This document shows positions 5,401 to 29,909 of a DNA stretch of 33,843 bases, piece by piece; within the stretch, counting starts at the first letter, position 1, and each line of letters begins with the position of its first letter. Origin of the DNA: Candidatus Ornithoclostridium excrementipullorum. GTDB lineage: Bacteria > Bacillota > Clostridia > Christensenellales > UBA3700. The translations under genes were made by a program, and so were the position numbers. The stretch covers positions 1 through 33,843 of the forward strand of contig DVKK01000038.1 in the NCBI GenBank assembly GCA_018716085.1, read 5' to 3'. A model generated the notes under the pieces. That model saw nothing but the letters and a program-made list of their open reading frames with translations. It was not told the DNA's origin and did not search any database.

Positions 5401-6438
5401 ATGAAAACATTGAGATTTATAGGATCCTATATATCCGAAACGATACGGAGAAATCCCGTTACCGTTCTGCTTATAGTCATATGTACGGTAGTGGGCGGTT
5501 ATTTGTCCTCCGTGGTTTACGGATTGATGAAGATGGAAGTCGGCAGCGTCGCAAGGATGTTCGTGCCCACATATACCGTTTCGTACGACGGCGAAAAGAC
5601 CGAGGTTTCGGAGTTCTTGCGGTTTGCGGACATTCTGGCTGAGTACGATCCTTATGCGGAGCGCGGTTACGACGCCGCTTCGTCCGAATTGCAATACATA
5701 GAGATGTCGGTATGTTTCAACGACGGGACCGTGGACGAGGCGTTCGGCGGCAGGGTAATATTCGTGCTTTATCCCGGAGATATAATGGACCGCGAACGGA
5801 TAGACAGAGCCGATACCGTAACGGTACCGGCGCACATAGCGGAGGCTTACGGGATATCCGAGGGCGACGTCGTTTCCTTTTACGGGGCGAGGCTGACGGT
5901 CTCTTCCGTGGAGGAAGATATCCTTTATCCCGCCGTATCGTATAAGACGGCCACGGAGGCGATGACGAGCGGACGGACCGAGTTTTCTTTCGTACCGAAC
6001 AGAAAGCTGTCGGAAGCGGATAAAGAGGCTTTCGGAGCCCTCGGGTTGTCCGAACAGTCTCAGACTTACAGGATGCCGTTTTTGTTCATACTTTGCGTGC
6101 TCTTGTGCGCGCTGAACACCTTGATGAGCACGCGTTATATCTCCAAACGCGCCCGAAAAAAATATTCGGTGGCGAAAATGCTCGGAGCGGGCAACGGCAC
6201 TATAGCCGCGGCTATGCTGATCGAACAGGCGTTGTACGCGCTCGTCGGTACGTTTATAGGAGTCAGGATCGCGGCGGCGGTCGTGAAGAGCGCCGGATAT
6301 TTCGGTTTCGAGAGAGCTTTCGCTTTGACCGCGGGCGATATTTTCTGCATTGCGGCGGCAAATCTGCTTTTGATAATCGCCACCGGAGCGTACAGCGTTA
6401 TCAAAAGGGCGAGGGCTGTGCCCTGCGCGGAAGTATAG
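5401..6438 (+). CDS. ABC exporter permease, FtsX-like (first half)
   Basis: The 345-residue protein has the four-helix FtsX/MacB permease layout: one membrane segment near the N-terminus (about 20-42), a large extracytoplasmic domain (about 45-222), and three C-terminal segments (about 226-243, 268-295, 312-335). The short cytoplasmic stretch after helix 2 (RARKKYSVAKMLGAG) is the typical FtsX coupling region. The ribosome binding site is poor: a GGGGG lies 14 bases before the ATG, so the start is less certain than elsewhere. It is the first of three tightly packed genes with a second permease and a LolD/MacB-like ATPase. Such sets export peptides or lipoproteins or transmit mechanical signals; the substrate cannot be read from sequence. 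Confidence 0.75.
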   Translation: MKTLRFIGSYISETIRRNPVTVLLIVICTVVGGYLSSVVYGLMKMEVGSVARMFVPTYTVSYDGEKTEVSEFLRFADILAEYDPYAERGYDAASSELQYIEMSVCFNDGTVDEAFGGRVIFVLYPGDIMDRERIDRADTVTVPAHIAEAYGISEGDVVSFYGARLTVSSVEEDILYPAVSYKTATEAMTSGRTEFSFVPNRKLSEADKEAFGALGLSEQSQTYRMPFLFILCVLLCALNTLMSTRYISKRARKKYSVAKMLGAGNGTIAAAMLIEQALYALVGTFIGVRIAAAVVKSAGYFGFERAFALTAGDIFCIAAANLLLIIATGAYSVIKRARAVPCAEV

Positions 6439-6446
6439 GGGGCGGG

Positions 6447-8521: not shown

Positions 8522-8538
8522 GTTCAAATTGTATTATT

Positions 8539-8574
8539 TACTGCCCAAAACGGGCTGACACTATCCAAAGCGGG
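8539..8574 (-). promoter_or_regulatory. Tandem operator-like repeats upstream of the XRE gene
   Basis: Two 16-base direct repeats, TACTGCCCAAAACGGG (8539-8554) and CACTATCCAAAGCGGG (8559-8574), match at 12 of 16 positions. They start 20 bases apart, about two helical turns. They lie just before the regulator gene, near a TACAAT box at its start, which is where an autoregulatory operator would be expected. Confidence 0.45.
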
Positions 8575-8687
8575 TAGTAAAATACGATCGTGCAGAGCGC
8601 GGGCGACGAGCCGGATCGATCGGTAAAAGCCGTCGGGATCGATTGCCGCCGGGGTGCGATGCCGTCTGAGCGTACGCCGTCATTGTG

Positions 8688-8716
8688 TTGACAAGGCATA
8701 GGCGGTTATATATAAT
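8688..8716 (+). promoter_or_regulatory. Consensus sigma-A promoter of the first rarA; leaderless start
   Basis: TTGACA (8688-8693), 17 bases, TATAAT (8711-8716), then only six bases to the ATG at 8723. Transcription should start at the initiation codon, so the mRNA is expected to lack a leader and ribosome binding site. Confidence 0.8.
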
Positions 8717-8722
8717 TGAGAC

Positions 8723-10015
8723 ATGGACACATTGTTCGATTTCAACGCAAAGGCATCGCAGCCGCTGGCGGAGAGGATGCGCCCGAAAACTCTCGACGAT
8801 TTCGTGGGACAGGAGCGCATAGTCGGCAAGGGCAGCATATTGCGCAGAGCGATACTCGCGGACAGATTGGGCAGCTGCATTTTTTACGGACCCCCCGGAT
8901 GCGGCAAGACCACGCTCGCCAACATAATCGCCGAGACCACCGGAGCGAATTTCGCAAGGCTCAACGCCGTATCCAGCGGAGTGGCGGACGCGAAAAAGGT
9001 CATCGAAGACGCGAAGCGGGCGCAGGAGCTTTACGGTACGCGCACGTATCTGTTGTTGGACGAATGCCATCGTTGGAACAAGGCGCAGTCGGACAGCGTG
9101 CTTGCGGCGATAGAAAAGGGATATATCGTTTTCATCGGTTCGACGACCGAAAATCCTTACATAAACATGACAAGGGCGATAGTGTCGCGCTGTCGGGTGT
9201 TCGAGTTCGCGAGGCTGTCCGCGGAGGACGTAAGACGCGCTCTCGAAAGAGCGATAGCGGATAAGGACAACGGACTGGGCAACTACGATCTGTCCGTGGA
9301 TAAAGCCGCCGTCGATCACATAATATGGGCGGCGGACGGAGATCTGCGCAATGCGCTCAACGCATTGGAATTGGCTGTGCTCACGACTCCGCCGTCGGCG
9401 GACGGTTCTATAAAAATAGACCTCGATACGGCTCAGCAGTCGATACAGAAAAAAGCGATGAGCATAGACGAGAGCATGTATTACGATATGCTGTCGGCGT
9501 TTTGTAAATCGCTGCGGGGCAGCGACAGCGACGCGGCGCTTTATTGGGCGGAGCGGCTCATACAGGCGGGGTGCGATCCTCTTCTGATAGCGAGGCGCAC
9601 TCTGGTGCACAGCGCCGAGGACGTGGGCATGGCGGATCCCCGCGCGCTTACCGTGGCGGCGGCGGGACTGACGGCGCTCGAAAAACTCGGTATGCCCGAG
9701 GGAAAGATACCTCTCTACGAGGCGATAATCTACGTGTGCGAAGCGAGCAAGTCGCCGAGCGTGATCAACGCGTTGAGCAGGGCGGAAGAGCTCGTGGCGC
9801 GGAGCAAAGACGACACCGTGCCGTTCGATCTGCGCGACACGCATTACTCGGGCGCGCCCGACACGCATTACAGGTATCCGCACGATTACGGCGGTTGGGT
9901 CGATCAGACGTATCTGCCCGAATCGCTGAAAGACGAACGACTTTACGTTCCCTCGTCCAACGGTGAGGAAAAGACGCTCGTAAGAGCGAAAGAAATAAAG
10001 AAAAACAAGGGCTGA
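8723..10015 (+). CDS. rarA: RarA/MgsA-type AAA+ ATPase, divergent paralog
   Basis: The 430-residue protein has the RarA plan: an N-terminal PLAERMRPKTLDDFVGQ segment, Walker A GPPGCGKT (56-63), Walker B LLLDECH (110-116), sensor 1 IGSTTENP, arginine-finger region SRCRVFEF, and the C-terminal tetramerisation domain ending in HYRYPHDYGGWVDQTYLP. RarA acts at stalled replication forks, at the single-strand DNA gap. It differs from the canonical RarA at 28566-29909 in this window in having DECHRWNKAQSDS where that one has DEIHRFNKAQQD, so it is a diverged second copy. There is no ribosome binding site; a perfect promoter ends six bases before the ATG. It is followed after 46 bases by an ABC transporter pair that is probably unrelated in function. 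Confidence 0.9.
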   Translation: MDTLFDFNAKASQPLAERMRPKTLDDFVGQERIVGKGSILRRAILADRLGSCIFYGPPGCGKTTLANIIAETTGANFARLNAVSSGVADAKKVIEDAKRAQELYGTRTYLLLDECHRWNKAQSDSVLAAIEKGYIVFIGSTTENPYINMTRAIVSRCRVFEFARLSAEDVRRALERAIADKDNGLGNYDLSVDKAAVDHIIWAADGDLRNALNALELAVLTTPPSADGSIKIDLDTAQQSIQKKAMSIDESMYYDMLSAFCKSLRGSDSDAALYWAERLIQAGCDPLLIARRTLVHSAEDVGMADPRALTVAAAGLTALEKLGMPEGKIPLYEAIIYVCEASKSPSVINALSRAEELVARSKDDTVPFDLRDTHYSGAPDTHYRYPHDYGGWVDQTYLPESLKDERLYVPSSNGEEKTLVRAKEIKKNKG

Positions 10016-10061
10016 GTCCCCGCCGAAAGGCGCAATGCGGCGTAGCCGCGATCGGAGGAAC

Positions 10062-10823
10062 ATGTTAAGGATAGAAAATTTGGAAAAGCGTTACCGCAAC
10101 AGCGACAAATTGGCGGTGGACGGAGTTTCGCTGCACGTCGGCGAAGGGGAGATATTCGGTTTTCTCGGCCCCAACGGCGCGGGAAAATCCACGACCATAA
10201 AATGCGTGTGCGGTATCCTGCCGTTCGAAAAGGGCAGGATCGAGATATGCGGCAAGGATCTTGCGCGCGATCCTATCGGAGCGAAGATGCAGATGGGGTA
10301 CGTGTCCGACAACCATGCCGTATACGACAAGCTGACCGCGCGCGAGTACGTCAATTTCATGGCGGACGTCTACGGCGTAGGCGCCGCGGACCGCAAGGCG
10401 AGGTCGGAGAAACTGGTCGAACTTTTCGGTCTCGGCGACGCGTACGACAGCGAGATAAAGACCTATTCTCACGGTATGAAACAGAAGATATGCGTGATAG
10501 GCGCGCTCGTTCACAATCCCAAGCTGTGGATACTCGACGAGCCTATGACGGGACTCGATCCCAAATCGTCGTTCGAGCTGAAAGAGTTGATGCGCGAGCA
10601 CTGCAAAGAGGGCAACAGCGTTTTCTTCTCCTCGCACGTGCTCGAAGTCGTGGAAAAAGTGTGCGATCACGTGGCGATCATAAACGGCGGCAGGATGATC
10701 GCCGATTTCGGTATAGACGAACTTGACGACATCAAGCGCAACAGCTCTCTGGAAGACGTATTCCTTACTTTGACAGACGGCTCGGCGAGCGCGCAGAACG
10801 ACGGCGCGACGGAGGCAAGATGA
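10062..10823 (+). CDS. ABC transporter ATP-binding protein (ABC-2 type exporter)
   Basis: The 253-residue ATPase starts at ATG 10062 behind GGAGGAAC; nine extra in-frame codons upstream contain that ribosome binding site and are excluded. Walker A is GPNGAGKS (36-43), the signature is degenerate (YSHGMKQK), and Walker B is LWILDEPMTGLDP, followed by VFFSSHVLEVVE. This is the CcmA/DrrA-like class that partners with ABC-2 permeases. It overlaps the permease gene by four bases (ATGA), a mark of a two-gene operon. No separate promoter is evident in the 46-base gap after rarA, so it may be read from that promoter. The substrate is unknown. Confidence 0.92.
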   Translation: MLRIENLEKRYRNSDKLAVDGVSLHVGEGEIFGFLGPNGAGKSTTIKCVCGILPFEKGRIEICGKDLARDPIGAKMQMGYVSDNHAVYDKLTAREYVNFMADVYGVGAADRKARSEKLVELFGLGDAYDSEIKTYSHGMKQKICVIGALVHNPKLWILDEPMTGLDPKSSFELKELMREHCKEGNSVFFSSHVLEVVEKVCDHVAIINGGRMIADFGIDELDDIKRNSSLEDVFLTLTDGSASAQNDGATEAR

Positions 10824-12520
10824 AAAGATTCGCCGCGCTGCTCAGACTCAATCTCAAATACTATGTGATACCGAGTTTCGACAGCAAAAAGTCGAAAAGG
10901 AGATACATCGCGCTGATCGCGCTGATGTGTGTGGCATTTCTGGCTCCGCTGATCATGATCTGCCTTACTCTGTGGTATGCGGCTCAGACGATGCTCGCGG
11001 TCGGAGCGGGCGACACAATGCTCGCGGCGGTGTTCACCATGTCGCAGCTTCTTGTGCTGTTTTTCTCCGTTTTTACGTACATGTCTTCGATTTTCTTTGC
11101 AAAAGACAACGAGATCATGCTCAACCTGCCGCTGCGCAACGCGGAGATATTCTCGGCAAAACTGCTGTGTACGTATATCAACGAGCTGACGATAAGCGCG
11201 GTCACCGTGATACCCGTGACCGTCATCACCGCGATATCCGGCATTCAGGCGGGATTCGGCGCGTATTTCGGCGCGGGCTATTGGATACTGATCCCGTTTG
11301 CGGTCATACTGATGCCCGTCATGCCGCTGCTGCTTCTTTCGATAATATCGTTCCCTATCGCTATGATAGTTCAGAAAATGTCCAAAAGACCCGTGATATC
11401 CGCGATAGTGCAGGCGGTGCTGCTTATAGCGTTCATAGCGGTAGCCTATTTATTCAGCTACGGCAGTTCCTACGGTATGGAAGGAGCGGTGGACGGCAGC
11501 GTGAATACGGGCGTGTTTGAAGGGCTGGGCGGGATATCCGTTTATACCGCGCTGCTCGCAAAGGCGATGCTCGGACAGTCCGCCGCTGGAAATTTCTTCG
11601 CGTTTTTGGGCATAACCGTCGCAATGGCGGCAGCGGCGCTCGGACTTTCGGTCCTGCTTTACCGCAAAGCCGTGTATATGAGCGTGGACGGCGGCTCGGG
11701 GACGGGGCGCAGGACTTCCGCGGCAAAGGACGGAGAAGTTCGCGGCGTAAAGCGCGCTCTTGTACAGACTCAGGCGAGAACGCTGCTTCGCGATTCGGGC
11801 GTTCTGGTCAACCTGATAATGACGTTGGTCCTGCCTGTGGTCATGGTCATACTTATGACGTTGGTCATGCCGTCGGGAGAGGAACTGGTCGAGAGCGATC
11901 CGGGCGCAAGTGCCGATATGCTGAGATATTTCGATTATTTCGCACTCGGGATGGCGGTCATGATAATGATGTTTTCTTCCCCCGTCGGCAATGTGGGCGC
12001 TTCGTATGCGTTCTCGCTCGATAAAGACAACATACAGATACTCAAGACAATGCCTTTGTCGGGCAAAGACATTTTCAAGTCCAAATTGATCGTCAGCGAT
12101 ATCGTTTCGCTTGCGTCGGTGGTACTGGTGGCGGCGGCGCTGCCTTTCGTAACCGATCTGAACTGGTACGCTTATATCCTGTGTCCGGTATTTATCGCCG
12201 TCTATCTCGTGTCCTGCAACGCGTTCACGATGTCGCGCGATCTCAAAAACCCCAAGTTCAACTGGGTGACTATCAAGGAATTGACCAAGGCAAGCACCAG
12301 CGCCACGCAGATGATAATGATGGCGGTGTGCCTGGCGTTCGGACTGGTGGCGACTTTGCCCATGTTCGTACTCGCTTTTGCGGGTGCGGCGCTTCCCGAC
12401 TACGCGGTAGAGGCGATAATCTGGGGAGCCATGGGGCTGAGCTGCGTCGCGTCCTACTTTATTCTGCGGCTGCCTTCTTTCGGAAACGCGGAAAGGGATT
12501 TCGCCTTGATAGAGGCATGA
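10820..12520 (+). CDS. ABC-2 type transporter permease
   Basis: The 566-residue membrane protein has about twelve hydrophobic segments in two halves, separated by a charged stretch near residues 290-325 (about 29-58, 75-95, 125-150, 155-180, 190-215, 250-280, then 330-350, 370-395, 425-480, 495-520 and 530-560). Two-half ABC-2 permeases of this size are common in Bacillota and pair with a single ATPase as seen here. The FFAKDNEIMLNLPLRNAEIFSAKL segment and its second-half counterpart YAFSLDKDNIQILKTMPLSGKDIFKSKL repeat the same motif, showing an internal duplication of the permease unit. It is the last gene before a strong terminator. The cargo is not predictable. Confidence 0.85.
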   Translation: MKRFAALLRLNLKYYVIPSFDSKKSKRRYIALIALMCVAFLAPLIMICLTLWYAAQTMLAVGAGDTMLAAVFTMSQLLVLFFSVFTYMSSIFFAKDNEIMLNLPLRNAEIFSAKLLCTYINELTISAVTVIPVTVITAISGIQAGFGAYFGAGYWILIPFAVILMPVMPLLLLSIISFPIAMIVQKMSKRPVISAIVQAVLLIAFIAVAYLFSYGSSYGMEGAVDGSVNTGVFEGLGGISVYTALLAKAMLGQSAAGNFFAFLGITVAMAAAALGLSVLLYRKAVYMSVDGGSGTGRRTSAAKDGEVRGVKRALVQTQARTLLRDSGVLVNLIMTLVLPVVMVILMTLVMPSGEELVESDPGASADMLRYFDYFALGMAVMIMMFSSPVGNVGASYAFSLDKDNIQILKTMPLSGKDIFKSKLIVSDIVSLASVVLVAAALPFVTDLNWYAYILCPVFIAVYLVSCNAFTMSRDLKNPKFNWVTIKELTKASTSATQMIMMAVCLAFGLVATLPMFVLAFAGAALPDYAVEAIIWGAMGLSCVASYFILRLPSFGNAERDFALIEA

Positions 12521-12534
12521 CGGATAATATATCG

Positions 12535-12571
12535 CGCGCCTCGGAACGTTGCGTTCCGAGGCGCGTTTTTT
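12535..12571 (+). terminator. Strong intrinsic terminator after the ABC-2 operon
   Basis: A 14-bp stem (12535-12548 / 12552-12565) with a 3-base loop, followed by TTTTTT (12566-12571), starting 14 bases after the permease stop codon. Confidence 0.92.
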
Positions 12572-12626
12572 ATTCGCTTTTATCCGCAAGCGCGCGTTTT
12601 TGAATGCGTCTTCCCGTCGGAAAAGG

Positions 12627-13325
12627 TCAGGATCGGGCGACGGTCGCTGCGAATATCGCTCTTACCGTCACCGTATAGGTCACGTTGCCGGACGGGTCGG
12701 ACATCGGATAAGAGGACAGCTCTTCTATCCTCAGAGGTTCTGGGTCCGCTCCCAGTACGGCGGCTTTGTCCTTTGCGATCTCCAACGCCGCGGTCAGTGC
12801 GCCGTAGTCCGACGACGATCCCGAAAGAGTATAATTCACGCCTCCGACGTAAGTCGCTCCCGCGGAGGAAACGTCTTCGACTGCCTGGGCGGCGTAATCG
12901 GGATCGGAACATTCGAAGGTAAGATATCTTGCCGCGGTATAGCCGTTTTCGGTGCGATACACGCTGCTTCCCGTCGTATAGAGCGCGCCGTGCGTTCCCA
13001 ATGTCCCGAAGATCGCCGCATACTTGTTGTCATTGGCTGTCACCGCCTCGTCGGAAGTTGAAGCCTCGCTTTCGACGGTGAAATAAAGCGTGAATCCGTC
13101 GGCGGGGAGAGTTACGGAAGCAGTGCCCGTAACGGCGACTTCGCCGAGCGGGATATCCGCGCTGTCCGACGGAGCGGTACGCGCCGGGATATCGCGTCGT
13201 TTTTGCGGATCGCCTCCGCGTCCTTCTTCCGACGTGTCGGAACAGGAACAGGCGAGGATAGCCGTCATACAGATCAACGCCGCCGCGACGGCGAGGACAA
13301 CGGATCGTTTGAACTTTTTTTTCAT
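12627..13325 (-). CDS. SIMPL-domain (DUF541) lipoprotein
   Basis: The 232-residue product starts at ATG 13325, six bases after a GAGGTG ribosome binding site; an in-frame GTG at 13334 lies inside that site. It has a lipoprotein signal (basic start, hydrophobic run, lipobox ILAC with Cys26) and a short polar linker. Residues from about 64 on are a SIMPL domain: VAVTGTASVTLPADGFTLYFTVES at the start, a central segment with ALEIAKDKAAVLGA, and a terminal VTYTVTVRAIFA strand. SIMPL proteins are found on the surface or in the periplasm and are linked to oxidative stress and signalling, but their biochemical role is not settled. It is a single gene, convergent with the ABC-2 operon. Confidence 0.85.
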   Translation of the reverse strand: MKKKFKRSVVLAVAAALICMTAILACSCSDTSEEGRGGDPQKRRDIPARTAPSDSADIPLGEVAVTGTASVTLPADGFTLYFTVESEASTSDEAVTANDNKYAAIFGTLGTHGALYTTGSSVYRTENGYTAARYLTFECSDPDYAAQAVEDVSSAGATYVGGVNYTLSGSSSDYGALTAALEIAKDKAAVLGADPEPLRIEELSSYPMSDPSGNVTYTVTVRAIFAATVARS

Positions 13326-13445
13326 ACTGTTCACCTCGGAAATACGGGGGCGGCTCGCCGCCGCGCCCGCATGATACTGTCGGTATGTGCAAAACGGCGT
13401 TTCTTATGCCTCGTTGCGCGCAAACGGACAAAAACGCGATTACCG

Positions 13446-13474
13446 TTGACGATTGCCGAGGAAAATGTTAAGAT
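13446..13474 (+). promoter_or_regulatory. Sigma-A promoter of the beta-galactosidase gene
   Basis: TTGACG (13446-13451), 17 bases, TAAGAT (13469-13474); the ATG at 13509 is 34 bases further on. No obvious catabolite-response site is seen next to it. Confidence 0.65.
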
Positions 13475-13508
13475 AAATCAGGTAATAAACTACCGCGAGG
13501 AGATGACG

Positions 13509-15257
13509 ATGCTTACCATCAAGGACGGAAAATTTTTCAGGGACGGGAAAGAACACAAGATATGGTCGGGTGCGATACACTACTTCCGCACTTTGCCCGA
13601 ATACTGGCGCGACAGGCTCGAAAAGCTCAAAGCCGCGGGGTTCAATACGGTGGAGACCTATACGTGCTGGAATCTGCACGAACCTCGCAAGGGAGAGTTT
13701 GATTTTTCGGGGATGCTCGACATCGAACGCTTCGTCGATACCGCCGCGCAGCTCGGACTGGACGTGATACTGCGCCCGGGACCGTATATCTGTGCGGAAT
13801 GGGATCTCGGCGGACTGCCGGCATGGCTGTTCAAAGACGGAACGGTGCGTATACGCTGCAACGATCCCGTTTATCTGGGACACGTACGCGATTATTTCAA
13901 AGAGCTTTTTTCGAGATTGGGCGGCCGTCTGGCGAGCCGAGAAGGCGGCAACATCGTCGCCGTGCAGATCGAGAACGAGTACGGCAGTTATTCCAACGAC
14001 AAAAACTATCTGCGCGCCATAGGAGATATTCTGGACGAGTGCGGGGTAGACGTGCTGAGATTTACGTCCGACGGACCGACCGGATGGATGCTCTCGGGCG
14101 GAACTCTGCCGGGCGTCTACAAGACTCTGAATTTCGGTTCGGGCGCGGCGCACGCGTTCGCTTCTCTCGACAGGTTCGGAGAAAAAGCTCCGAAAATGTG
14201 CATGGAATTCTGGTGCGGATGGTTCGATCATTGGGGCAGCGTACATCATAAGCAGAACAGGAAGTTCGTCAAAGAGATCAGGACGATGCTCGACAACGAC
14301 GTCAATTTCAACATATATATGTTCCACGGAGGGACTAATTTCGGCTTTACCGCAGGCGCAAATTACGGCAAGAATTATCAGCCGACGGTCACGAGTTACG
14401 ACTACGGCGCGCTTCTTACCGAGTGGGGCGATTATACGCCCAACTATCACGCCGTCCGCGATATGCTGTTTGCCGCAAAGGGGGAGACCGCGCCGCCTCT
14501 GCCGCCGCGCCCGAAACTCGTTTCGGCGGGAAAGGTATCGCTTACCGATAAGGCGAGCCTTTGGGACAACCTCGACGTGCTTGGTACCGTACACGAAAGC
14601 CCTCTGCCGGAGCCTATGGAGTATTACGGACAGAATTCGGGATTGATCCTGTATTCTGTCGACGTCGAAGGCGTGTACGAGCGTTCGTTCATGACCATAG
14701 ACGATCTGCGCGACAGGGGATATCTGTTCCTTGACGGACAGCTGCATAAGGTATTCGATTACCGCAAAAAGGATATGGTCGCGAGATTGTACGGCAAGCC
14801 CGCCGCGATAATACCGCCGTTCGAAGGCAAGAAGAATTTCTCTCTGCTTGTGGAGGCGATGGGTCACGTGAATTACGGCGCGCATCTCAAAGACCGCAAG
14901 GGCATATCCGGCATGAGGCTCATAAACCAGAATCTCACCGGATTCAGAGTCACCACGCTGCCGCTCGACGATATATCGGGCGTGAAGTACGGCGGCGGCG
15001 ACAAATATCCGCTTTTCTTCCGCGGCAGGTTCAAGGCGGACAAAGGCGAATGCTTCGTGCATATGGACGGCTTTACGAAAGGCGTCGTATGGGTCAACGG
15101 CTTCAATCTGGGCAGGTACTGGAACATAGGTCCGCAAAAGGCGCTTTATCTCCCGGGCAGTCTGCTCAAAGACGAAAACGAGATAGTCGTTCTCGAATTG
15201 GAAAAGGCGGCGGCTCCGTACGTGGAGATATCGGATAAGCCGCACCTTGGCAGATAA
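13509..15257 (+). CDS. Family 35 glycoside hydrolase, beta-galactosidase
   Basis: The 582-residue enzyme starts at ATG 13509, six bases after GAGGAG; an ATG two codons earlier is too close to that site. Residues 1-320 are the TIM barrel: SGAIHYFRTLPEYWRDRLEKLKAAGFNTVETYTCWNLHEP, the acid/base Glu157 in IENEYGSY, and the nucleophile Glu233 in MEFWCGWFDHWG, both in the GH35 positions. The C-terminal jelly-roll ends in the typical KGVVWVNGFNLGRYWNIGPQ segment. It has no signal peptide, so it acts in the cytoplasm on imported beta-galactosides and oligosaccharides. It has its own promoter and no sugar transporter beside it. GH35 family assignment is secure; exact linkage preference is not. Confidence 0.93.
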   Translation: MLTIKDGKFFRDGKEHKIWSGAIHYFRTLPEYWRDRLEKLKAAGFNTVETYTCWNLHEPRKGEFDFSGMLDIERFVDTAAQLGLDVILRPGPYICAEWDLGGLPAWLFKDGTVRIRCNDPVYLGHVRDYFKELFSRLGGRLASREGGNIVAVQIENEYGSYSNDKNYLRAIGDILDECGVDVLRFTSDGPTGWMLSGGTLPGVYKTLNFGSGAAHAFASLDRFGEKAPKMCMEFWCGWFDHWGSVHHKQNRKFVKEIRTMLDNDVNFNIYMFHGGTNFGFTAGANYGKNYQPTVTSYDYGALLTEWGDYTPNYHAVRDMLFAAKGETAPPLPPRPKLVSAGKVSLTDKASLWDNLDVLGTVHESPLPEPMEYYGQNSGLILYSVDVEGVYERSFMTIDDLRDRGYLFLDGQLHKVFDYRKKDMVARLYGKPAAIIPPFEGKKNFSLLVEAMGHVNYGAHLKDRKGISGMRLINQNLTGFRVTTLPLDDISGVKYGGGDKYPLFFRGRFKADKGECFVHMDGFTKGVVWVNGFNLGRYWNIGPQKALYLPGSLLKDENEIVVLELEKAAAPYVEISDKPHLGR

Positions 15258-17784: not shown

Positions 17785-18014
17785 CTTTGAACAGAATTCG
17801 CAATGTGATCGGCTATGACTTTAAAGAGCAGGGCTCATTGCCGTGATACGGCGAGATATTCGGAATATAAATATTATTGCTTCACGGATCGGAAGGAGCA
17901 TCCGATGCGATCAGGTAAAAGCATGCTTGCGCTTTTTTGCTGTTTTTGTTATAATATAAATAATTATGGTCGTGAATCGATCACGGCGCTGTAAAATGCC
18001 GTCAGAGGAGCAAA
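17785..18014. other. Left junction of the AT-rich island
   Basis: Composition shifts here from GC-rich host-like sequence to AT-rich sequence. A small hairpin (ATCGGA / TCCGAT around 17888-17905) and the hsdM-stub promoter are present. I see no integrase remnant, no tRNA end and no transposon inverted repeat in this stretch. Confidence 0.5.
17927..17955 (+). promoter_or_regulatory. Sigma-A promoter of the hsdM stub and probably the island operon
   Basis: TTGCGC (17927-17932), 17 bases, TATAAT (17950-17955), about 60 bases before the hsdM-like ATG. No terminator separates it from the large genes downstream, so it may also transcribe them. Confidence 0.7.
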
Positions 18015-18164
18015 ATGGCAAATTCGTCAAAGGAACAGGAAAGGGAAGAACTTCACAAAGCGATATGGAACATAGCAAACGATCTTCGCGGTAGCGTAGA
18101 CGGCTGGGATTTCAAACAATATGTTCGTAAATGTGCGCAGAAGAGCAAAGATAATGTAAAATAA
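18015..18164 (+). pseudogene. hsdM: Truncated type I restriction methyltransferase subunit (hsdM N-terminal stub)
   Basis: A GAGGAG ribosome binding site precedes ATG 18015, and the frame encodes 49 residues. Residues 12-38 (EELHKAIWNIANDLRGSVDG followed by WDFKQYV) match the highly conserved N-terminus of HsdM, where the normal protein goes on with LGMLFYRYIS and about 450 more residues. Here the match stops exactly after DFKQYV and is replaced by an unrelated RKCAQKSKDNVK tail and a stop. So this is the 5' end of a former type I restriction-modification operon, cut off at codon 38 by deletion or replacement. It keeps a good promoter and ribosome binding site and so could still be made as a short peptide. 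The Druantia-like genes start 86 bases downstream. Confidence 0.8.
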
Positions 18165-18250
18165 TCAAGTAATTGACGTGGAAAACAAAATGATAACTCA
18201 AATAAAAGACAATAGGTATATTTGCATTGTACTTATATAATGGTGAAAAT

Positions 18251-21019
18251 ATGAATCAAGAATTAAAAAATAAAATTAATGATGCTATAAAAGAGACATT
18301 CGTAGGCAACTATATCTTTACAGAAGAAGAGCAGACAGAAATGTTAGAGGAACTCAGCCGGTCGTTTAGAGATATATGTAATTCTTGGGGAACCTCTTTG
18401 AATCCTTCTCAATACGAATTAGCATTTGTAACCATAGTAAATTTGACAAAAAAATGGGACTCACATGTAGATACTTGGTTGGAGTTTCTTTATAAAAAAT
18501 TATTAGGCAGACAGTCTTTGGAAAATGAACCGACAGGAAAGGCTTACAGATTAATCCAAGAGATATATGAAAGTTTAACGAAAAGAAATAAGATTTTCTA
18601 TTTTGATTCTTTTACAAAAAAATATTACGCGTCCATCACAAGTCATGCTATGGCTCCGAAGTCCTCATTCTTTTCTTTGTTTGATTTGTGCTGGAAAATA
18701 TATTGTGATGATCTTAATCAAGAATATATGGAAAATGATTCTGCTTTTGATTTGATTGCACAAAGTTTAAAAAATAAATTGGCTGGGGAAATAAAAGAGG
18801 AAGACGATTTGAAAATCGGGAGTGATGCATATGCATTAAAAGCGAGTATCAAAGGGTTGATTATTGACCGCCCCAAAATATTTATTTCCTTGTTAGAAGA
18901 TATTATCTGTTCGATTAATTTTCTTTTTAACAGTGAACCGCTAAAAAAAGATTCTTATTTGCATTTGTTAATTTCGGAATGGTGGATAAAAAAGGAAAAA
19001 ACGTTCGGACTGGGAAAACCCATTAGGACATTTAACCGTGGGAAAATTGTAACAGATTATTCTCAAATCAGAGCAAAGTACATTATTCACGATGGTAAGG
19101 TTAAATTATATATTCCTTCCTTTCGATTGATTTCCGATCTAGATGTCGAGCCGTATATAGAAATTAAGGAAAATGAGAAAATTATATTGAGCCAAAAAAT
19201 GGAAACTGTCGGATCGGGCATATTAATGGGAACCAAGGATTTCGAGGTCGCTTTAGACGATTTGCCTATATCAAATTCGATCAGAATAATAGCTACAATA
19301 ACACATAATGCGAAGATAATATATGACTCAAAAGAAACGTTATACCGCGATTACATTCTTTTAAATGACAGAAAAGAAATTGTCGCACAGGATTGTATAC
19401 CCGGAATTTACTATCTTTATATAAATAATTTTAATGATTTAATTCGCTATCCCGATGATATACAACGCAATTCATCCAAGATGTTTAGTTTGAAAGCCGT
19501 CGAAGGAGATGTTTTACAAAGTAATTACAGAACAACATTTTTTATATCGGAGAAAAACAACAGAGAAATTTATTTATATGCTCGTGAGAGAGGTGATGTA
19601 TTTTTTCGCCAAAAGGGTGAAGATTATGTTATTATCGACGGAGATTTATTTGTCGATATTGTTACGCCATTAGATGCAAGGGAGTATGGTGTGCGTTATC
19701 AAGAAACTCAGTTTCGGTTGATTGATTTTGACAGTGAAGATTTAGATGGACATATCCGTTTTAATATTACAATGCTTCTTGACGTAGGCAGCCCTCAAAA
19801 AGTCACGGTCTTTAAATACAATGATAATTCGATCGTTGCATCTCATAATATTGTAAAATTCAACAACATATCTGTTAGCTTTGACAAACCTTATTATTAC
19901 GATAACAATTTATCAGGTATAGTTAGATTTAAAACGGAAAAATATGACATTTCAAGGCGATTTGAAACATTTGAAAGTGAGGTTTTCGTTCCTGTCGAAG
20001 ACGGTGAAGTCGTAATAACTCCTCCGACGATAAGGTGGAAAATAGATGACGGAATGTGGAAATGCATACCGACCGACGTTCCTGTTTGGTATAAAAAACA
20101 CAACAACGCCTCTATCCTAAAAGTTCAGGTTCCTAAAAATATGGGTTTTACAGTCGGGTTAGGCAAGCACTGTTTGCCTACCGGAGAAAAATATTCGGAG
20201 TATAATTTGGGAAAGCTGTTATATTTTCTTAAGGAAACTGATTCGCAGGATGAATTCCCGTTGTTTATCAATACCGGTACTGAAGTACTACTTTTAGAAA
20301 CTATAGTAACGAAAGAAAAGTTTATAGGTGAAGCTATAGCCGTCAACAGTGAAGAAAAAGAAATTTATTGGAATCCCGAATATTTCATAGGTGATGAAAG
20401 CTCTATTTTTGAAATTAGATTCTATCAAGAAAACAGGCTTTTGGCAAGTGTGACCTGCGATAATTCAAGAAGAAGAACTTACTCCGTTTCATTTGATGAC
20501 GGATACTATGAAATAGAAGTAGTATATTTACCGAAACGATTGGTAAAAAAAGAAATCCCTTGTCTGCGCAAAAAATGTGTTTTTGGTAATGAAAAAGTCT
20601 TTCGTTTTCAAAATAAAAGAATTGCTCTAAGGAAAGTTATGCTGTTTGACTGTGCGAAAGAAGAAACGATTCGTCCATTATATATCGACAAGTTGCGATA
20701 TTTGGGAGAATATGAAAAGAGCGATATATATTCCGGAGAACTTTTCTTCCTTAATCACAATACGGGATTGCGTACGCCTGTCAAGTATTTGACTGATAGC
20801 AAAGGACAAGCGATACAAGTCAATCCATTGCGCATTGAACTAAGAACAAATCTTACCTGCTATATAGGATACGGATTGGCGGAAGCGGACAAAGAGTTTG
20901 ACTATGATGATGAGTTTACATTGGATACTACCGGGAAAATAAGTGTATCAATGAAGACAAACGGTTGTAAGAATAGGAACATTGATTATTATATAATGGA
21001 GGTGGAAAAAGATGTTTAA
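18251..21019 (+). CDS. Large protein of unknown fold, DruH-like partner of the DUF1998 helicase (Druantia type III candidate)
   Basis: From ATG 18251 the product has 922 residues (eight more codons are open upstream from a TTG at 18227, across a TATAAT box at 18236-18241). I recognise no catalytic motif. The first third is helical and charged, with patches rich in aromatic residues (SFRDICNSWGTSLNPSQYEL, FSLFDLCWKIY, ISEWWIKKEKTFGLGKPIR). From about residue 280 it is mostly beta-strand, like repeated Ig/sandwich modules. It lacks a signal peptide and membrane segments. Its end overlaps the helicase ATG by eight bases, so the pair is translationally coupled. A large protein of unknown function directly before a DUF1998 helicase is the layout of Druantia type III (DruH, DruE). 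The DruH assignment is by context only. AT-rich codon use marks it as acquired. Confidence 0.72.
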   Translation: MNQELKNKINDAIKETFVGNYIFTEEEQTEMLEELSRSFRDICNSWGTSLNPSQYELAFVTIVNLTKKWDSHVDTWLEFLYKKLLGRQSLENEPTGKAYRLIQEIYESLTKRNKIFYFDSFTKKYYASITSHAMAPKSSFFSLFDLCWKIYCDDLNQEYMENDSAFDLIAQSLKNKLAGEIKEEDDLKIGSDAYALKASIKGLIIDRPKIFISLLEDIICSINFLFNSEPLKKDSYLHLLISEWWIKKEKTFGLGKPIRTFNRGKIVTDYSQIRAKYIIHDGKVKLYIPSFRLISDLDVEPYIEIKENEKIILSQKMETVGSGILMGTKDFEVALDDLPISNSIRIIATITHNAKIIYDSKETLYRDYILLNDRKEIVAQDCIPGIYYLYINNFNDLIRYPDDIQRNSSKMFSLKAVEGDVLQSNYRTTFFISEKNNREIYLYARERGDVFFRQKGEDYVIIDGDLFVDIVTPLDAREYGVRYQETQFRLIDFDSEDLDGHIRFNITMLLDVGSPQKVTVFKYNDNSIVASHNIVKFNNISVSFDKPYYYDNNLSGIVRFKTEKYDISRRFETFESEVFVPVEDGEVVITPPTIRWKIDDGMWKCIPTDVPVWYKKHNNASILKVQVPKNMGFTVGLGKHCLPTGEKYSEYNLGKLLYFLKETDSQDEFPLFINTGTEVLLLETIVTKEKFIGEAIAVNSEEKEIYWNPEYFIGDESSIFEIRFYQENRLLASVTCDNSRRRTYSVSFDDGYYEIEVVYLPKRLVKKEIPCLRKKCVFGNEKVFRFQNKRIALRKVMLFDCAKEETIRPLYIDKLRYLGEYEKSDIYSGELFFLNHNTGLRTPVKYLTDSKGQAIQVNPLRIELRTNLTCYIGYGLAEADKEFDYDDEFTLDTTGKISVSMKTNGCKNRNIDYYIMEVEKDV

Positions 21020-24000
21020 TCCCGTAAAAGCGTCAAAAAACATAAAAGAAGAGTTTATTAACTATGTAGAAACTTCTTTTTCATTCGCAGAGGAATCACT
21101 GCGTGAACAATTCGTTCGAGAGCTCGACAAAATTGTTGCCGCAGGTCCTTATCTTGAAGTGAACGATGTTTTTCAAAGCGGTAAGTCAATAGAACAGTTG
21201 ATCGAGGAAGGTGTTTTATCTCCGTTATTTAGACGTTTAGAAGAAAAAAAAGAATTGTCTTCGAAAAACAAAAAATCTTTGCCTATTGAAAGACCGTTAT
21301 ATTTGCATCAGGAAAAGGCTATTCGAACGCTTGTATGCGGTAAAAATGCAGTTGTGTCCACCGGTACCGGAAGCGGAAAAACTAATTGTTTTTTAATCCC
21401 TGTTATTAACGAATTATTACGGGAACAAGAACATGGAACATTGAATGATGGGATAAGAGCACTGTTTATTTATCCTATGAATGCCCTTGCAAACGATCAA
21501 ATCAAAAACATAAGAAAGCTATTAATGGAATACCCTGATATAACGTTCGGCGTATATAACGGGGCAACCGAAGAAGATGAAGAGAAGGCTTTAACAGTTT
21601 ATGAGGCAATGTTTGCGCGAGAAGAAGTTGAAAAATTGCGAACAAAACTCTCGAACGAAAAATTATCTCGTGCTGAAATGAAAAAAAATCCGCCTCATAT
21701 TTTATTTACAAACTATGCAATGTTGGAACACTTGTTGTTCAGACCGAATGATGACGTGTTGTTTACCAATTCTGATTTTAGATTTGTAGTTTTAGATGAG
21801 GCACATGTTTACGCCGGAGCAACAGGAATTGAGACAGCCCTTCTTTTACGTCGATTAAAAGCAAGAATAACATCTAAACAAGGAACTCAATTTATTTTAA
21901 CTAGCGCTACTTTAGGTACGGATAATGATTCTGATGACGATATTATTCAATTCGCGCGCAATCTTTGTGGAGAAGAATTTACAAAAGATGTTATTATTCG
22001 AGGCACAAGAGAAAAATTTATACCGACACACAATAAAAATGAGTACCCCAAAGAGCTGATATGTGATCTCGCAAACGAAGAGAATGATGTTGCTTCAGTA
22101 TTGTCCGAATACGGAGTTGCGAACGATGCTTCTAAATCAGAACCTGAACTTTTATATGATTTTATTCTGACAACCGCTTTATATCAAAGATTACGGAGTA
22201 ATCAGAAAAAAGTAATGTCACTTGAACAAATACAGCAGATATTGTCTGTTGATATGGATACTACCATTGCGTTTATATCAATCTGTACGCGTGCGCAAAA
22301 AAACGGAAAAGCTCTTGTTGACGCAAGATATCACTTTTTTATCCGTAGTTTAGAAGGATGTTTTATCACCTTAAACAAAGATAAGAAAATGTTTTTAACA
22401 AGGCAAAAGTCTTATCTTGAAAACGGATCCGATTATGCTGTTTTCGAAGTTGCACTTTGTGATGAGTGCGGACGTTATGCAATTATAGGGAGAAGAGAAG
22501 ACAATCAATTAAAGCAGGCGAATAAGTTCAATGATGTACTTGAATATTTCTTTCTTGCGTCAGAAGAAAACGATGATATAGAAGGAGATCCTTTACAATC
22601 CGAACAGGATGAGAGCAAGCCTAATAATGAAAGATATTATCTATGTACGCAGTGTGGGGCGATTATTCCGAAAGAAAAAATTAAAAATCCCCCTTGTGAT
22701 TGCGGAATGTCAAAATATATTGAGGTAATCAAAGTCCCGAGTTCAAATATCGGCGCAAAATGCGGGAATTGTCATATCGGTACTTATAAGCGTTTTTATT
22801 TGGGAAACGATGCTGCAACTGCTGTTTTAGCCACATCTTTATACGAAGAATTGCCGGAATCGTCTTTTGAAGATGATTCCGCACAAGAAACTAAAACAAA
22901 TTTTTTACTAAAAATAACAAAAGAACGTAAAAAGAAAGCAAAGAAAACCGGCAGACAATTTTTAGCTTTTTCGGATAGCAGACAAGAAGCAGCAAAGTTT
23001 GCTTGTTATTTGGGAAAGAGTTATCAGGAATTTTTAAGGCGTCGCGGAATATACCAAATCATTAAGCAACATGGCAATAGTATAATTGAGGATGTTTTTA
23101 CGATTTCTGACTTCGTAGCAAAATTAACTTCATTTTTTTCTAACCGCAGAACGTTTGCCGAAAGTAACAACGATAACGGCAATTTAACCGCGGTAAGCAA
23201 CGAGAATGCTTGGGTTGCTATGCTCAACGAGTTGGTGCGTTTTAATTCGGCAACTTCGATGACTCGACTTGGGATTCTTCAATTTCATTATTTGGGAAAC
23301 ACCGAAGAGCTTATAGACGTCATTGCCAAAGAATATAATGTAGATAGAGAATCTGTCGCTAATTTGCTGGATTTATTGGTTTTTGAAATTGTTAAAAACG
23401 GAGCTGTTTTAACAAACAGCGATACAGATATCAACGATAACGACAGAGAGTATATTTTCTATACTCCTTCTCAAAGATTCATAACTAAAATTCAAAATCC
23501 GGAGAAGAGGCAATCCACAATTTTTGAATGGTCGCCAAAACACGTAAAAGGAAAAGCAGATAAATTCGTTAAAACAAACAGATTATATTATGTGAAACGA
23601 TTCTTGAAACTTGATGACATCCAAGCCGCAGAGTTTTTGGATATGTATTTTGACTATTTAGTAGAAAACGAAGAATATCCCCTGATGGATGTAAATAAAG
23701 ATAAAACTTATGCGGTATCCGCGAAATTCTTCCAGGTTAAAATTTCTGGAGATAAAAGTGCCAAATGGTATCGGTGTAAAAAATGCGGACGTGTTTCACA
23801 ATTCAATCTTAACGGACATTGCGTAACGCCGAGATGCGATGGAGAAGTCGTTTGTGTTAATCCCGAGGCTCTGAATAAAGAAAATCATTTTGCACAATTA
23901 TATTGCAGCGATAGAATGTCTCCATTGTTTATAAAAGAACATACGGCACAGTTGAGCAAAAAAGAAAGTCTTACTTATCAAGAACAATTTATAAAAAAAG

Positions 24001-25844
24001 AAATCAACGCACTGTCCTGTTCTACCACATTTGAAATGGGAGTTGATGTCGGAGATTTGGAGACGGTTTTCTTAAGAAATGTGCCCCCTCTTCCTTCCAA
24101 TTATGCCCAAAGAGCAGGCCGCGCAGGAAGAAGTGTCAACGCCGCTGCTTATGCTTTGACATTTGCGAAGTTAAGTTCTCACGATTTAACGTTCTTTAAA
24201 GAACCCGAGAAGATGATTAACGGTAGCATATTACCTCCCTTGTTTAAGGTTGACAACGACAAGATCGTGAAACGTCATATTTACGCCGTTGCATTAAGTA
24301 TGTTTTTTGAGGGTCACGCAGAATTATATAACCACAACCAGGCTGATAAATTTATCAATGAAAAAGGCTATCTTCAATTTATTGAATGGTTAAATTCTAA
24401 ACCTGAAAAACTAAAAAATATGTTGCTCCGATCGATTCCCGACATTAACAATTTACATGATCGCATGGGTATCGAAGACTTTGGTTGGTTAAACGACTTC
24501 ATTGGATCTGAAGGAACATTTACCGCTTTGATCCGCGAATATGAAGGTAACCTTGTACAATTTGATAAAATTATAAAGCAGTATGATAAAGAAAAAATGC
24601 GCGATCTTGCTGCCAAATGCGAAAGAAAAAAATATTTTTATATGAAAAATAAGTTAATCGATTTTTTGGCAAGAGGGAATATTTTGCCCCGGTATGGGTT
24701 TCCTGTGGATACTGTTGAGTTGGAACAAAATACAACGGCAAAAAATATTGATAGCCTTAGACTTTCCAGAGATTTGCAAGTTGCTATTGCGGAATATGCG
24801 CCTTCGTCAGAAGTTGTTGCAGACGGAAAACTTTACACAAGCAGATACATAAAAAAGAGCAATGTCGGAACAAATAAGGAGTGGTATACAGGATATATCG
24901 GTGTCTGCCCGAATGAAGATTGTAAGGCGGTAAACTACAGCGTAACTCCAATTGCAACAGAAGGCATTAGTTGTTCTTCTTGCGGACAAATCTTGCATAA
25001 AATCGACTTTGTTGAAAGTATTGAGCCGCGTTCCGGCTTTGTTACGGAAAGGGAGACAAAAGAGGTCCCTTTATCAAAGCAGGAAAAAAATTACAAATCT
25101 GAAGATTATTACATAGGCAACAAGGGAGCTAGGACAATAGATAAATTTGAATTTAAATTCAATGGAATTAAAATTTTAGTTGAATCTACGACAAACGACT
25201 CTTTGCTTGTGAAATCTTCCAATTCTTTCTACGTTTGTCCGGTATGCGGATTTGCTTATGCCAGTGATGAAACAATCAGCGAAGACAAGGAGGCAAATAG
25301 AAAAATAAAAAACGGAGCACATGTGATAAAAACTGTTGTCAAACATGAAAGTTTATTCAGTCAAAGTCAATGTAATTGCCAAGAATTGAAGAAATATACT
25401 TTGCATCATATTTTTAATACTGATGTTGCAAAAATTAATTTTCAATGCGATACATCAGATTATGATACAATGGTATCAACAATGTACGCTATTCTTAATG
25501 CAATGGCAGATACGCTTAATATTGAAAGAAGAGATATAAAGGCGTGTCTTTCTCCGAAACTATTGGGTAATGAACTAAGTTATTCTATTATAATTTACGA
25601 TTCGGTTCCCGGTGGTGCCGGTCATTCTAGGAGATTGGTTACAAGTAATGGAAAAATGTTGTATCAAATTTTCATGGCAGCATTAAAGAGAGTGGCTACT
25701 TGTAAATGTACGCCATCCTGTTATAGTTGTTTAAGAAGCTATGATAATCAAAAAATACATGATAATCTTGATAGAAAAAAAGCGGAAAAATTTTTGCAGC
25801 AATTTATGGGAGAAATTGAAGTTCTAAATGATCAAACAACGTGA
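21012..25844 (+). CDS. druE: DEAH helicase with C-terminal DUF1998 zinc module, DruE-like (Druantia)
   Basis: The 1610-residue protein has a superfamily 2 helicase core: Walker A TGTGSGKT (117-124), motif Ia YPMNALANDQ (154-163), DEAH (262-265), LTSATLG (296-302), then a long insert, and motifs V and VI as STTFEMGVDVGDL (about 1004-1016) and QRAGRAGR (1033-1040). The insert carries several CxxC pairs (from Cys483, the CTQC/CDCG group, CGNC and YRCKKCG...HCVTPRCDG). More zinc pairs lie at CPNEDC/CSSCG and CPVCG. The C-terminus from about 1464 is DUF1998: HHIFNTDVAKINF, YDSVPGGAGH (PGGAG 1533-1537), and Cys1564, 1566, 1570 and 1573 before LRSYDNQKIHDNLDR. DruE of Druantia is a giant DUF1998 helicase, usually somewhat larger than this. 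DISARM splits helicase and DUF1998 over two genes, and MrfA-type repair helicases are half this size. Confidence 0.85.
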   Translation: MFNPVKASKNIKEEFINYVETSFSFAEESLREQFVRELDKIVAAGPYLEVNDVFQSGKSIEQLIEEGVLSPLFRRLEEKKELSSKNKKSLPIERPLYLHQEKAIRTLVCGKNAVVSTGTGSGKTNCFLIPVINELLREQEHGTLNDGIRALFIYPMNALANDQIKNIRKLLMEYPDITFGVYNGATEEDEEKALTVYEAMFAREEVEKLRTKLSNEKLSRAEMKKNPPHILFTNYAMLEHLLFRPNDDVLFTNSDFRFVVLDEAHVYAGATGIETALLLRRLKARITSKQGTQFILTSATLGTDNDSDDDIIQFARNLCGEEFTKDVIIRGTREKFIPTHNKNEYPKELICDLANEENDVASVLSEYGVANDASKSEPELLYDFILTTALYQRLRSNQKKVMSLEQIQQILSVDMDTTIAFISICTRAQKNGKALVDARYHFFIRSLEGCFITLNKDKKMFLTRQKSYLENGSDYAVFEVALCDECGRYAIIGRREDNQLKQANKFNDVLEYFFLASEENDDIEGDPLQSEQDESKPNNERYYLCTQCGAIIPKEKIKNPPCDCGMSKYIEVIKVPSSNIGAKCGNCHIGTYKRFYLGNDAATAVLATSLYEELPESSFEDDSAQETKTNFLLKITKERKKKAKKTGRQFLAFSDSRQEAAKFACYLGKSYQEFLRRRGIYQIIKQHGNSIIEDVFTISDFVAKLTSFFSNRRTFAESNNDNGNLTAVSNENAWVAMLNELVRFNSATSMTRLGILQFHYLGNTEELIDVIAKEYNVDRESVANLLDLLVFEIVKNGAVLTNSDTDINDNDREYIFYTPSQRFITKIQNPEKRQSTIFEWSPKHVKGKADKFVKTNRLYYVKRFLKLDDIQAAEFLDMYFDYLVENEEYPLMDVNKDKTYAVSAKFFQVKISGDKSAKWYRCKKCGRVSQFNLNGHCVTPRCDGEVVCVNPEALNKENHFAQLYCSDRMSPLFIKEHTAQLSKKESLTYQEQFIKKEINALSCSTTFEMGVDVGDLETVFLRNVPPLPSNYAQRAGRAGRSVNAAAYALTFAKLSSHDLTFFKEPEKMINGSILPPLFKVDNDKIVKRHIYAVALSMFFEGHAELYNHNQADKFINEKGYLQFIEWLNSKPEKLKNMLLRSIPDINNLHDRMGIEDFGWLNDFIGSEGTFTALIREYEGNLVQFDKIIKQYDKEKMRDLAAKCERKKYFYMKNKLIDFLARGNILPRYGFPVDTVELEQNTTAKNIDSLRLSRDLQVAIAEYAPSSEVVADGKLYTSRYIKKSNVGTNKEWYTGYIGVCPNEDCKAVNYSVTPIATEGISCSSCGQILHKIDFVESIEPRSGFVTERETKEVPLSKQEKNYKSEDYYIGNKGARTIDKFEFKFNGIKILVESTTNDSLLVKSSNSFYVCPVCGFAYASDETISEDKEANRKIKNGAHVIKTVVKHESLFSQSQCNCQELKKYTLHHIFNTDVAKINFQCDTSDYDTMVSTMYAILNAMADTLNIERRDIKACLSPKLLGNELSYSIIIYDSVPGGAGHSRRLVTSNGKMLYQIFMAALKRVATCKCTPSCYSCLRSYDNQKIHDNLDRKKAEKFLQQFMGEIEVLNDQTT

Positions 25845-25990
25845 AAGACAGGGAAAATCTAAGATGTGTAAAAAAGCAAGAAGTGGCAAATTTTATTTTA
25901 AACGAAACAAATGATAGAAGCTATAAAAATATGCCGCACGCTATTTATTCCACATCTGCTTGTGACGCGAGCTTCTAAGGACCGCATTTC

Positions 25991-26052
25991 AGGCAAATTA
26001 TGGCGAAACACTTATCCAGACTGATTGATGTCAGTCAGGTTTTGGTTTGCCT
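25991..26052 (+). terminator. Nested hairpin, probable terminator of the island operon
   Basis: CCAGACTGA (26016-26024) pairs with TCAGTCAGG (26031-26039) with one mismatch and a 6-base loop, followed by TTTTGGTTT. An outer 7-bp pair, AGGCAAA (25991-25997) with TTTGCCT (26046-26052), encloses it. It may be a terminator or a structured RNA. Confidence 0.45.
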
Positions 26053-26193
26053 TTGGCAATAACAGCCTTACACGTTTCTTTCCCACGTCAAGCGGCTTTC
26101 GCGGCATAAACCGCCGTTTGTATGCGATTGTAAAACTACATTATGGCTCTTCAACGGCTTAAAACGGCGGATAAAAAGCCTAACAAGGTAAAG

Positions 26194-26241
26194 AAAAAAC
26201 CTAAAACTACTTTCACTTGACAGTGGTTCGTTTTAGGTTTT
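26194..26241 (-). terminator. Intrinsic terminator of tRNA-Ala
   Basis: A perfect 12-bp inverted repeat (AAAACCTAAAAC at 26196-26207 and its complement at 26230-26241) encloses a 22-base loop. On the minus strand it begins three bases after the tRNA CCA end and finishes in a run of six T (26199-26194). Confidence 0.8.
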
Positions 26242-26244
26242 GAT

Positions 26245-26320
<76 letters not shown>

Positions 26321-28565: not shown

Positions 28566-29909
28566 ATGTCGGAACAGATCACAATGTTTGAAAAGGAAAC
28601 GGACCAGCCGCTTGCGGCGAGGGTCAGACCGCGCGACCTAAATGAATTCGTCGGGCAGAAGCATTTGCTCGGGGAGGGCAAGGTCTTGCGCCGTCTTATA
28701 GAGAACGATAAGATAGGATCGATGATCTTTTGGGGGCCTCCGGGAGTGGGCAAGACTACGCTTGCGCGCATCATAGCCCGAATGACGAAGTCCGAATTCA
28801 TAGATTTTTCCGCGGTCACCAGCGGTATCAAAGAGATAAAACAGGTCATGGAACAGGCGGAGCGCAACCGCCGTTTCGGGGATAAGACCATATTGTTCGT
28901 AGACGAGATACATCGTTTCAACAAGGCGCAGCAGGACGCCTTTCTTCCGTATGTGGAAAAGGGCAGTATAATACTTATAGGCGCAACGACCGAAAATCCG
29001 TCCTTTGAAGTAAACGGCGCGCTGTTGTCGCGTTGCAAGGTGTTTGTTTTGCAGGCGTTGACCTCGGACGAACTGGAAGAATTGCTGAGACACGCGTTGA
29101 AGGACGAGCGAGGCTTCGGCGATCAGGACGTGCGCATATCGGACGAATGTATAGCGATGATAGCGAACTTCGCCAACGGCGACGCGCGCAGCGCGCTGTC
29201 CACGTTGGAGATGGCGGTGCTGAACGGCGACGTTGACGGCGAGACCACGACCGTCACGCGCGAAACGGTGGAGCAGTGTACGTCCAAAAAGTCGTTGCTT
29301 TACGACAAGAACGGCGAAGAACACTATAATCTGATCTCGGCGTTGCACAAATCCATGCGCAACTCGGATCCCGACGCGGCGGTCTATTGGCTGGCGCGTA
29401 TGCTCGAAGCGGGCGAAGACCCGATCTACATAGCGCGCCGCGTAACGAGATTCGCGTGCGAGGATATAGGTCTTGCCGACCCGCGCGCGTTGGAGATAGC
29501 TGTCGCGGCCTATCAGGCGTGTCACCTGATAGGTATGCCCGAGTGCAGCGTACATCTGACCGAAGCGGTCGTCTATATGTCGCTTGCGCCCAAGTCCAAC
29601 GCGCTGTACATGGCGTACGAGAGCGCGAAAAAGGACGCTTTGACCATGCTTGCCGAGCCCGTACCGCTTGTGATCCGCAATGCCACTACCAAGCTGATGA
29701 AGGAATTGGGTTACGGAAAAGGTTATCAGTACGCGCACGATACCGACGACAAACTTACCGATATGCAGTGTCTGCCGGATTCGCTTCTCGGAAAGACATA
29801 TTATCGCCCGACGGACGAAGGCGTGGAGGGAAGATTCAGGTCGCGCCTGGAAGAGATAAGGGAGTGGAAGGCAAAGCACGGATACGGGAAAGACGGCCGC
29901 GGCAAATAA
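28566..29909 (+). CDS. rarA: Replication-associated recombination protein RarA (MgsA), canonical copy
   Basis: The 447-residue AAA+ protein has PLAARVRPRDLNEFVGQ, Walker A GPPGVGKT (57-64), Walker B FVDEIHRFNKAQQD (DEIH 113-116), sensor 1 IGATTENPSFEVN, the SRCKVF arginine-finger region, and the C-terminal RarA domain with LHKSMRNSDPDAAVYWLARMLEAGEDP and SPKSNALY-like APKSNALYMAYESAKKDA, ending HDTDDKLTDMQCLPDSLLGKTYYRPTDEG. All family positions are conserved, so this is the housekeeping RarA, acting at stalled forks and single-strand gaps. It is one of two RarA paralogs in the window, the other being 8723-10015. It has its own promoter and good ribosome binding site. Confidence 0.95.
   Translation: MSEQITMFEKETDQPLAARVRPRDLNEFVGQKHLLGEGKVLRRLIENDKIGSMIFWGPPGVGKTTLARIIARMTKSEFIDFSAVTSGIKEIKQVMEQAERNRRFGDKTILFVDEIHRFNKAQQDAFLPYVEKGSIILIGATTENPSFEVNGALLSRCKVFVLQALTSDELEELLRHALKDERGFGDQDVRISDECIAMIANFANGDARSALSTLEMAVLNGDVDGETTTVTRETVEQCTSKKSLLYDKNGEEHYNLISALHKSMRNSDPDAAVYWLARMLEAGEDPIYIARRVTRFACEDIGLADPRALEIAVAAYQACHLIGMPECSVHLTEAVVYMSLAPKSNALYMAYESAKKDALTMLAEPVPLVIRNATTKLMKELGYGKGYQYAHDTDDKLTDMQCLPDSLLGKTYYRPTDEGVEGRFRSRLEEIREWKAKHGYGKDGRGK

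Follow-up and report, generated by a model that had tools for sequence, protein, structure and literature searches.

A probable Druantia-kind two-gene module, distinct from the DruH-linked type III branch, in Candidatus Ornithoclostridium excrementipullorum

The stretch of DNA analysed here in full (33,843 nucleotides, hereafter the window) carries a pair of genes that we read as a probable Druantia-kind defence module against phage, one that branches apart from the type III systems linked to DruH. The first gene encodes a large protein, W1, and the second a DruE-type helicase that ends without a nuclease region; an anti-phage activity of the pair is inferred. An earlier, sequence-only reading had called the pair a type III system of DruH and DruE, with a diverged relative or a new subtype as alternatives, and it is these alternatives that fit best.

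Results

A DruE-type helicase without a fused nuclease

Both genes lie on the plus strand. W1, our proposed infection sensor, occupies 18251-21019 and has 922 amino acids counted from the ATG at 18251, its frame being open from a TTG at 18227 (930 aa), and the helicase (1610 aa) follows at 21012-25844. The open reading frames and motifs bear out the first description of the locus, in which a protein of more than 920 residues overlapped a 1610-residue DEAH/DUF1998 helicase by eight bases. This overlap (21012-21019, plus strand) implies a single operon, with translation of the two genes probably coupled, and an overlap or very short gap between the pair recurs in relatives L006, L027, L028, L030, L032, L033, L081, L082 and L084.

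The second protein is a YprA-type SF2 helicase with DEAD, Helicase_C and MZB domains in Pfam (MZB being the MrfA zinc-binding domain, or DUF1998). Its Walker A (GTGSGKT at 118), DEAH (262), SAT (298) and motif VI (QRAGRAGR at 1033) sequences are all intact, its C-terminal module holds PGGAG at 1533 with late cysteines at 1564, 1566, 1570 and 1573, and it contains twelve Cys pairs in total. All seven DruE models listed by PADLOC match it at 352-574 bits (DruE3 574, DruE1 572), compared with 51 bits for the best DISARM DrmA model, and among PDB entries it is E. coli DruE that it matches best (9tu7_Y, 281 bits, E 1.5e-82), with MrfA (6znp) at 68 bits. Together with the trees described below, these comparisons support its assignment to the DruE family rather than to DrmA or MrfA, as had been proposed from the sequence, and give the window the DUF1998-bearing DruE-family helicase by which Druantia of any type is recognised.

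The helicase ends 36 residues past the last DUF1998 cysteine motif, while E. coli DruE exceeds it by about 500 residues in total length and has two PLD domains at its end (published type III work); the window helicase thus has no fused nuclease. It had been described as small for a DruE, and the figure of 1610 residues stands, but the size is answered by a Mycobacterium smegmatis DruE of 1667 aa that is active in phage defence (PMC13316683).

The partner protein and its relationship to DruH

W1 has no match in Pfam, NCBIfam, PADLOC or the PDB. The PADLOC DruH models, searched with E-values up to 10, match neither W1 nor those of its relatives that were scanned, while the same models do recognise the DruH proteins of E. 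coli and Chryseobacterium. The initial naming of the first protein as DruH is therefore not sustained, and what is left of it is a suggestive signal in profile comparison. Here (hhalign) W1 37-152 aligns with DruH 50-159 at a best E of 0.009, in a collinear match that scores 35, where reversed decoys reach no more than 21; a second region (390-662 with 408-645, E 0.01) appeared with a smaller DruH set and was lost with the enlarged one. The remote comparison with DruH is thus collinear and above decoys, but short of significance. Profile comparison also places the N-terminal domain of W1 with the partner protein of a cyanobacterial DruE operon (E 1e-5). When 1571 ORFs were searched with an HMM built on this domain, the best matches outside the family were the partner proteins of cyanobacterial DruE operons (E 1.8e-5), with DruH at a best E of 0.64, or 0.1 after cyanobacterial sequences had been added to the HMM. 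An N-terminal domain common to the partners of DruE-type helicases is probable but unproven, and these alignments indicate kinship of the W1 N-terminus with DruH only suggestively. DrmE of DISARM class 2 was also considered as a relative of W1, and a presumed L. plantarum DrmE (L089) gave no signal in profile comparison.

An AlphaFold model of W1 built from a two-row alignment reached a pLDDT of 31, and the N-terminal piece modelled alone a pLDDT of 56, with no match in a fold search. The predicted layout, from a low-confidence model, is helical over roughly residues 1-250 and beta-rich in the remainder.

Quick trees were built from 31-37 DruE-like helicases, with SH-aLRT as the one measure of support. 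In these, the window helicase and its relatives form a clade of their own with support of 100, apart from the DruH-linked helicases (100), the DruA-linked helicases (99-100), those of cyanobacterial three-gene operons (100) and also the ARMADA helicases. The window clade leans towards the cyanobacterial operon helicases (support 61-91), with the deep branching order unsure. The window helicase is close to the DruH- and DruA-linked helicases but falls outside them, and neither the window clade nor the DruH-linked clade is nested in the other, each having support of 100; constraining these two together is 11-25 log units worse, a difference at which the AU test does not reject a joint clade (p 0.05-0.12).

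These results bear directly on the most serious alternative, that the pair is an ordinary if diverged Druantia type III system in which W1 is a drifted but true DruH, doing the same job, including dimerisation-dependent nicking. Its two-gene operon with the same gene order, the collinear W1-DruH matches above decoy level, and a predicted arrangement of some 250 helical residues followed by beta structure, which at low confidence resembles the layout described for DruH, would all be expected of such a system. However, the E-values are not significant, the second matching region does not withstand a larger DruH set, DruH reaches only E 0.1 in the HMM search, and the helicase clade is joined to the DruH-linked one at a cost in likelihood, so that we give this explanation somewhat less than an even chance. 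The type III label itself is apt for the two-gene layout, but not for a helicase that lies outside the DruH-linked clade and has no PLD nuclease end.

The W1 family and its associated genes

Profile searches of 398 genomes from the phylum recovered the W1 family in 11, and those of 350 genomes of another centre's class in 3, one being common to both; two further loci were reached via the helicase among 41 relatives, including the window's own genome, and one more copy lies in a Ruminococcus phage. A helicase of the window clade lies downstream of the W1-family gene in 14 of the resulting 17 loci, among them one with only the first 106 residues of the helicase before the contig ends (L031), two with a split helicase (L034 and L036) and one in which two extra ORFs intervene (L029). 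The other three comprise L037, with no helicase nearby, L035, with none on the short remainder of its contig, and L085, with DrmA and DrmB. Scans of viral contigs for closer relatives returned other kinds of DruE only, or nothing.

Across the ten intact pairs, the W1 proteins share a mean pairwise identity of 19% and the helicases one of 41%, and these two sets of identities covary (Spearman 0.67, Mantel p 0.0004). W1 evolves much faster than its helicase partner, in the same way that DruH diverges faster than DruE (PMC13192584). Some W1-family proteins have a domain resembling the C-terminal domain of the RNA polymerase alpha subunit, at the C-terminus in L034 (9007-12468; Pfam E 1.6e-28) and at the N-terminus in L084 (5909-10051; roughly 50% identity with rpoA products).

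In three relatives the gene directly after the DruE-type helicase encodes a NERD nuclease-UvrD helicase (L027 8739-10508, L028 12333-14111 and L084 15257-16987). The helicases of these loci alone have a tail of about 150 residues past DUF1998, compared with 26-42 in the other clade members examined, and since they form one subclade (support 98-99), the third gene and the long tail may have arisen in a single event. This arrangement suggests that a separate protein can provide the nuclease activity in trans. The L085 locus (439-14827, minus strand) is a DISARM-like operon. Its first product joins a W1-family protein to a UvrD-like helicase, and after it come DrmA, DrmB, NERD-UvrD, a cytosine methyltransferase and a restriction enzyme.

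Two other kinds of locus with DruE-like helicases were seen on plasmids. In the cyanobacterial operons L007, L013 and L057, a DruE-like helicase of about 2100 aa is encoded together with a large protein and a further one of about 310 aa, and both partner proteins of L013 are without a PADLOC match. The Streptomyces plasmid locus L092 encodes a protein of more than 1660 aa, a UvrD helicase and a 2269-aa DruE-like helicase, which stands alone on a long branch in the DruE-like tree; no relationship of the large partner with W1 or DruH was seen.

An acquired and maintained island

Over the W1-helicase stretch, and there only, GC content drops to 0.33-0.38 from about 0.55 in the flanks, a feature that the earlier reading did not mention. 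The sharpness of the drop marks an AT-rich island acquired horizontally (about 17900-26200, limits approximate), and GC recovers beside a tRNA-Ala gene adjoining its end (26245-26320, minus strand). Its content is the W1 and helicase genes only, with no integrase found inside and no direct repeats found flanking it. Just upstream of the pair, a 49-codon type I methyltransferase remnant (18015-18164, plus strand) aligns at its end with positions 1-25 of HsdM_N (E 8.6e-4, short of the Pfam cut-off), pointing to an older restriction-modification locus that was probably once at this site; type I restriction-modification genes also adjoin the pair in relatives L082 and L036. Elsewhere in the window, two MgsA/RarA-type AAA+ ATPase genes (8723-10015 and 28566-29909) lie less than 20 kb apart.

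Within the genus the pair is patchy, present in 2 of 13 genomes and at different places. The other genome with a complete pair (G736; W1 31% and helicase 60% identical to those of the window) has the pair on one contig and the sequences that flank it in the window on two others, three different contigs in all. The pair is accessory and mobile. A W1-family copy is carried by Ruminococcus phage NatCom_28274, between endolysin and replication genes. A close copy of the pair, with a W1 fragment 87% identical, sits on a 3.4-kb contig binned as Gastranaerophilales (L001), through either recent transfer or misbinning.

The distribution and composition of the island, as well as the phage copy, weigh heavily against a second explanation, in which the helicase would be a chromosomal DNA-repair enzyme like MrfA/YprA, assisted by an accessory protein and with no part in defence. 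An MZB/DUF1998 end is indeed common to MrfA and the window helicase, but MrfA matches so much more poorly than E. coli DruE in the PDB search that we consider a repair role highly improbable. Measured against the L001 copy, W1 has a dN/dS of 0.115 and the helicase one of 0.103, so both proteins are being maintained, and purifying selection on both genes is strong. With long, full-length ORFs that are paired across many genomes, the low ratios make this pair more than a product of chance. That it is a decayed, non-functional remnant is barely credible, for although the adjoining hsdM remnant indicates that the locus has seen decay, the frames and motifs of the pair are intact and a dN/dS of about 0.1 contradicts it.

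Discussion

In type III systems DruH is likely the sensor, and DruE loads onto 3' single-stranded tails (published type III work). By analogy, W1 would most likely act as sensor and the helicase as effector, a role for W1 that rests on its position, its variability and this parallel, since the protein has no recognisable domain. In our preferred model of a Druantia-kind module separate from the DruH-linked branch, the variable W1 would meet a phage component on infection and then license or recruit the DruE-type helicase, which would load on the 3' single-stranded tails of phage replication intermediates, translocate, and so block phage replication or circularisation. As the helicase has no nuclease region, the block would have to come about through the unwinding or trapping of DNA, through host nucleases or, in three relatives, through NERD-UvrD. 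Minimal systems of this kind, without a fused nuclease, let one ask how a DruE helicase stops phage without cutting, and the clade offers a natural comparison between members with and without the third gene.

More tentatively, and on balance we would not yet favour it, W1 may represent a portable sensor family mounted on various YprA-type cores: the fused DruE-type helicase, the split DrmA-DrmB pair of L085 and possibly the helicases of the cyanobacterial operons. If this reading is true, Druantia and DISARM share a motor plus an exchangeable recognition module. The L085 operon, which connects the partner proteins of Druantia-like helicases with those of DISARM-like helicases, makes the idea of an exchangeable sensor testable.

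The window pair adds a coherent Druantia-type branch, whose partner family goes unrecognised by PADLOC. It resembles Druantia type III (E. coli DruH and DruE, PDB 9tud and 9tu7) in its two-gene operon with a variable, large first protein, in its giant DruE-family helicase with a DUF1998 end and in its defence-island context, and differs in a partner unrecognised as DruH and a helicase in a separate clade; it differs from type III-A in particular in having no C-terminal PLD nuclease domains. With the cyanobacterial operons it has in common a matching N-terminal domain in the first large protein and the grouping of the helicases (support 61-91), whereas those operons have the extra gene of about 310 aa and a longer helicase with an extended C-terminal part. 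DISARM (DrmA and DrmB) likewise combines a YprA-type helicase with DUF1998, and at L085 its two proteins follow one of the W1 family; in the window, unlike in DISARM, helicase and DUF1998 form a single protein and the locus has no methyltransferase.

A III-like branch is already known. Bell et al. 2025 (PMC12458937; reference GIH50614.1) describe III-like or III-B systems as a phylogenetically distinct branch, mostly without a nuclease domain, and the nuclease-free window helicase agrees with that description; given this precedent, the pair is no new kind of system. The closest anatomy is that of the M. smegmatis type III pair MSMEG_1253/1254, named DruH and DruE by its authors, unlike ours. 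Its short DruE has no canonical nuclease domain and nevertheless protects, its DruH (1132 aa) overlaps DruE by 17 bp, and the pair stops circularisation and replication of the phage, triggered by a minor tail protein (PMC13316683). The window pair likewise has a short helicase without a nuclease region, and overlapping genes.
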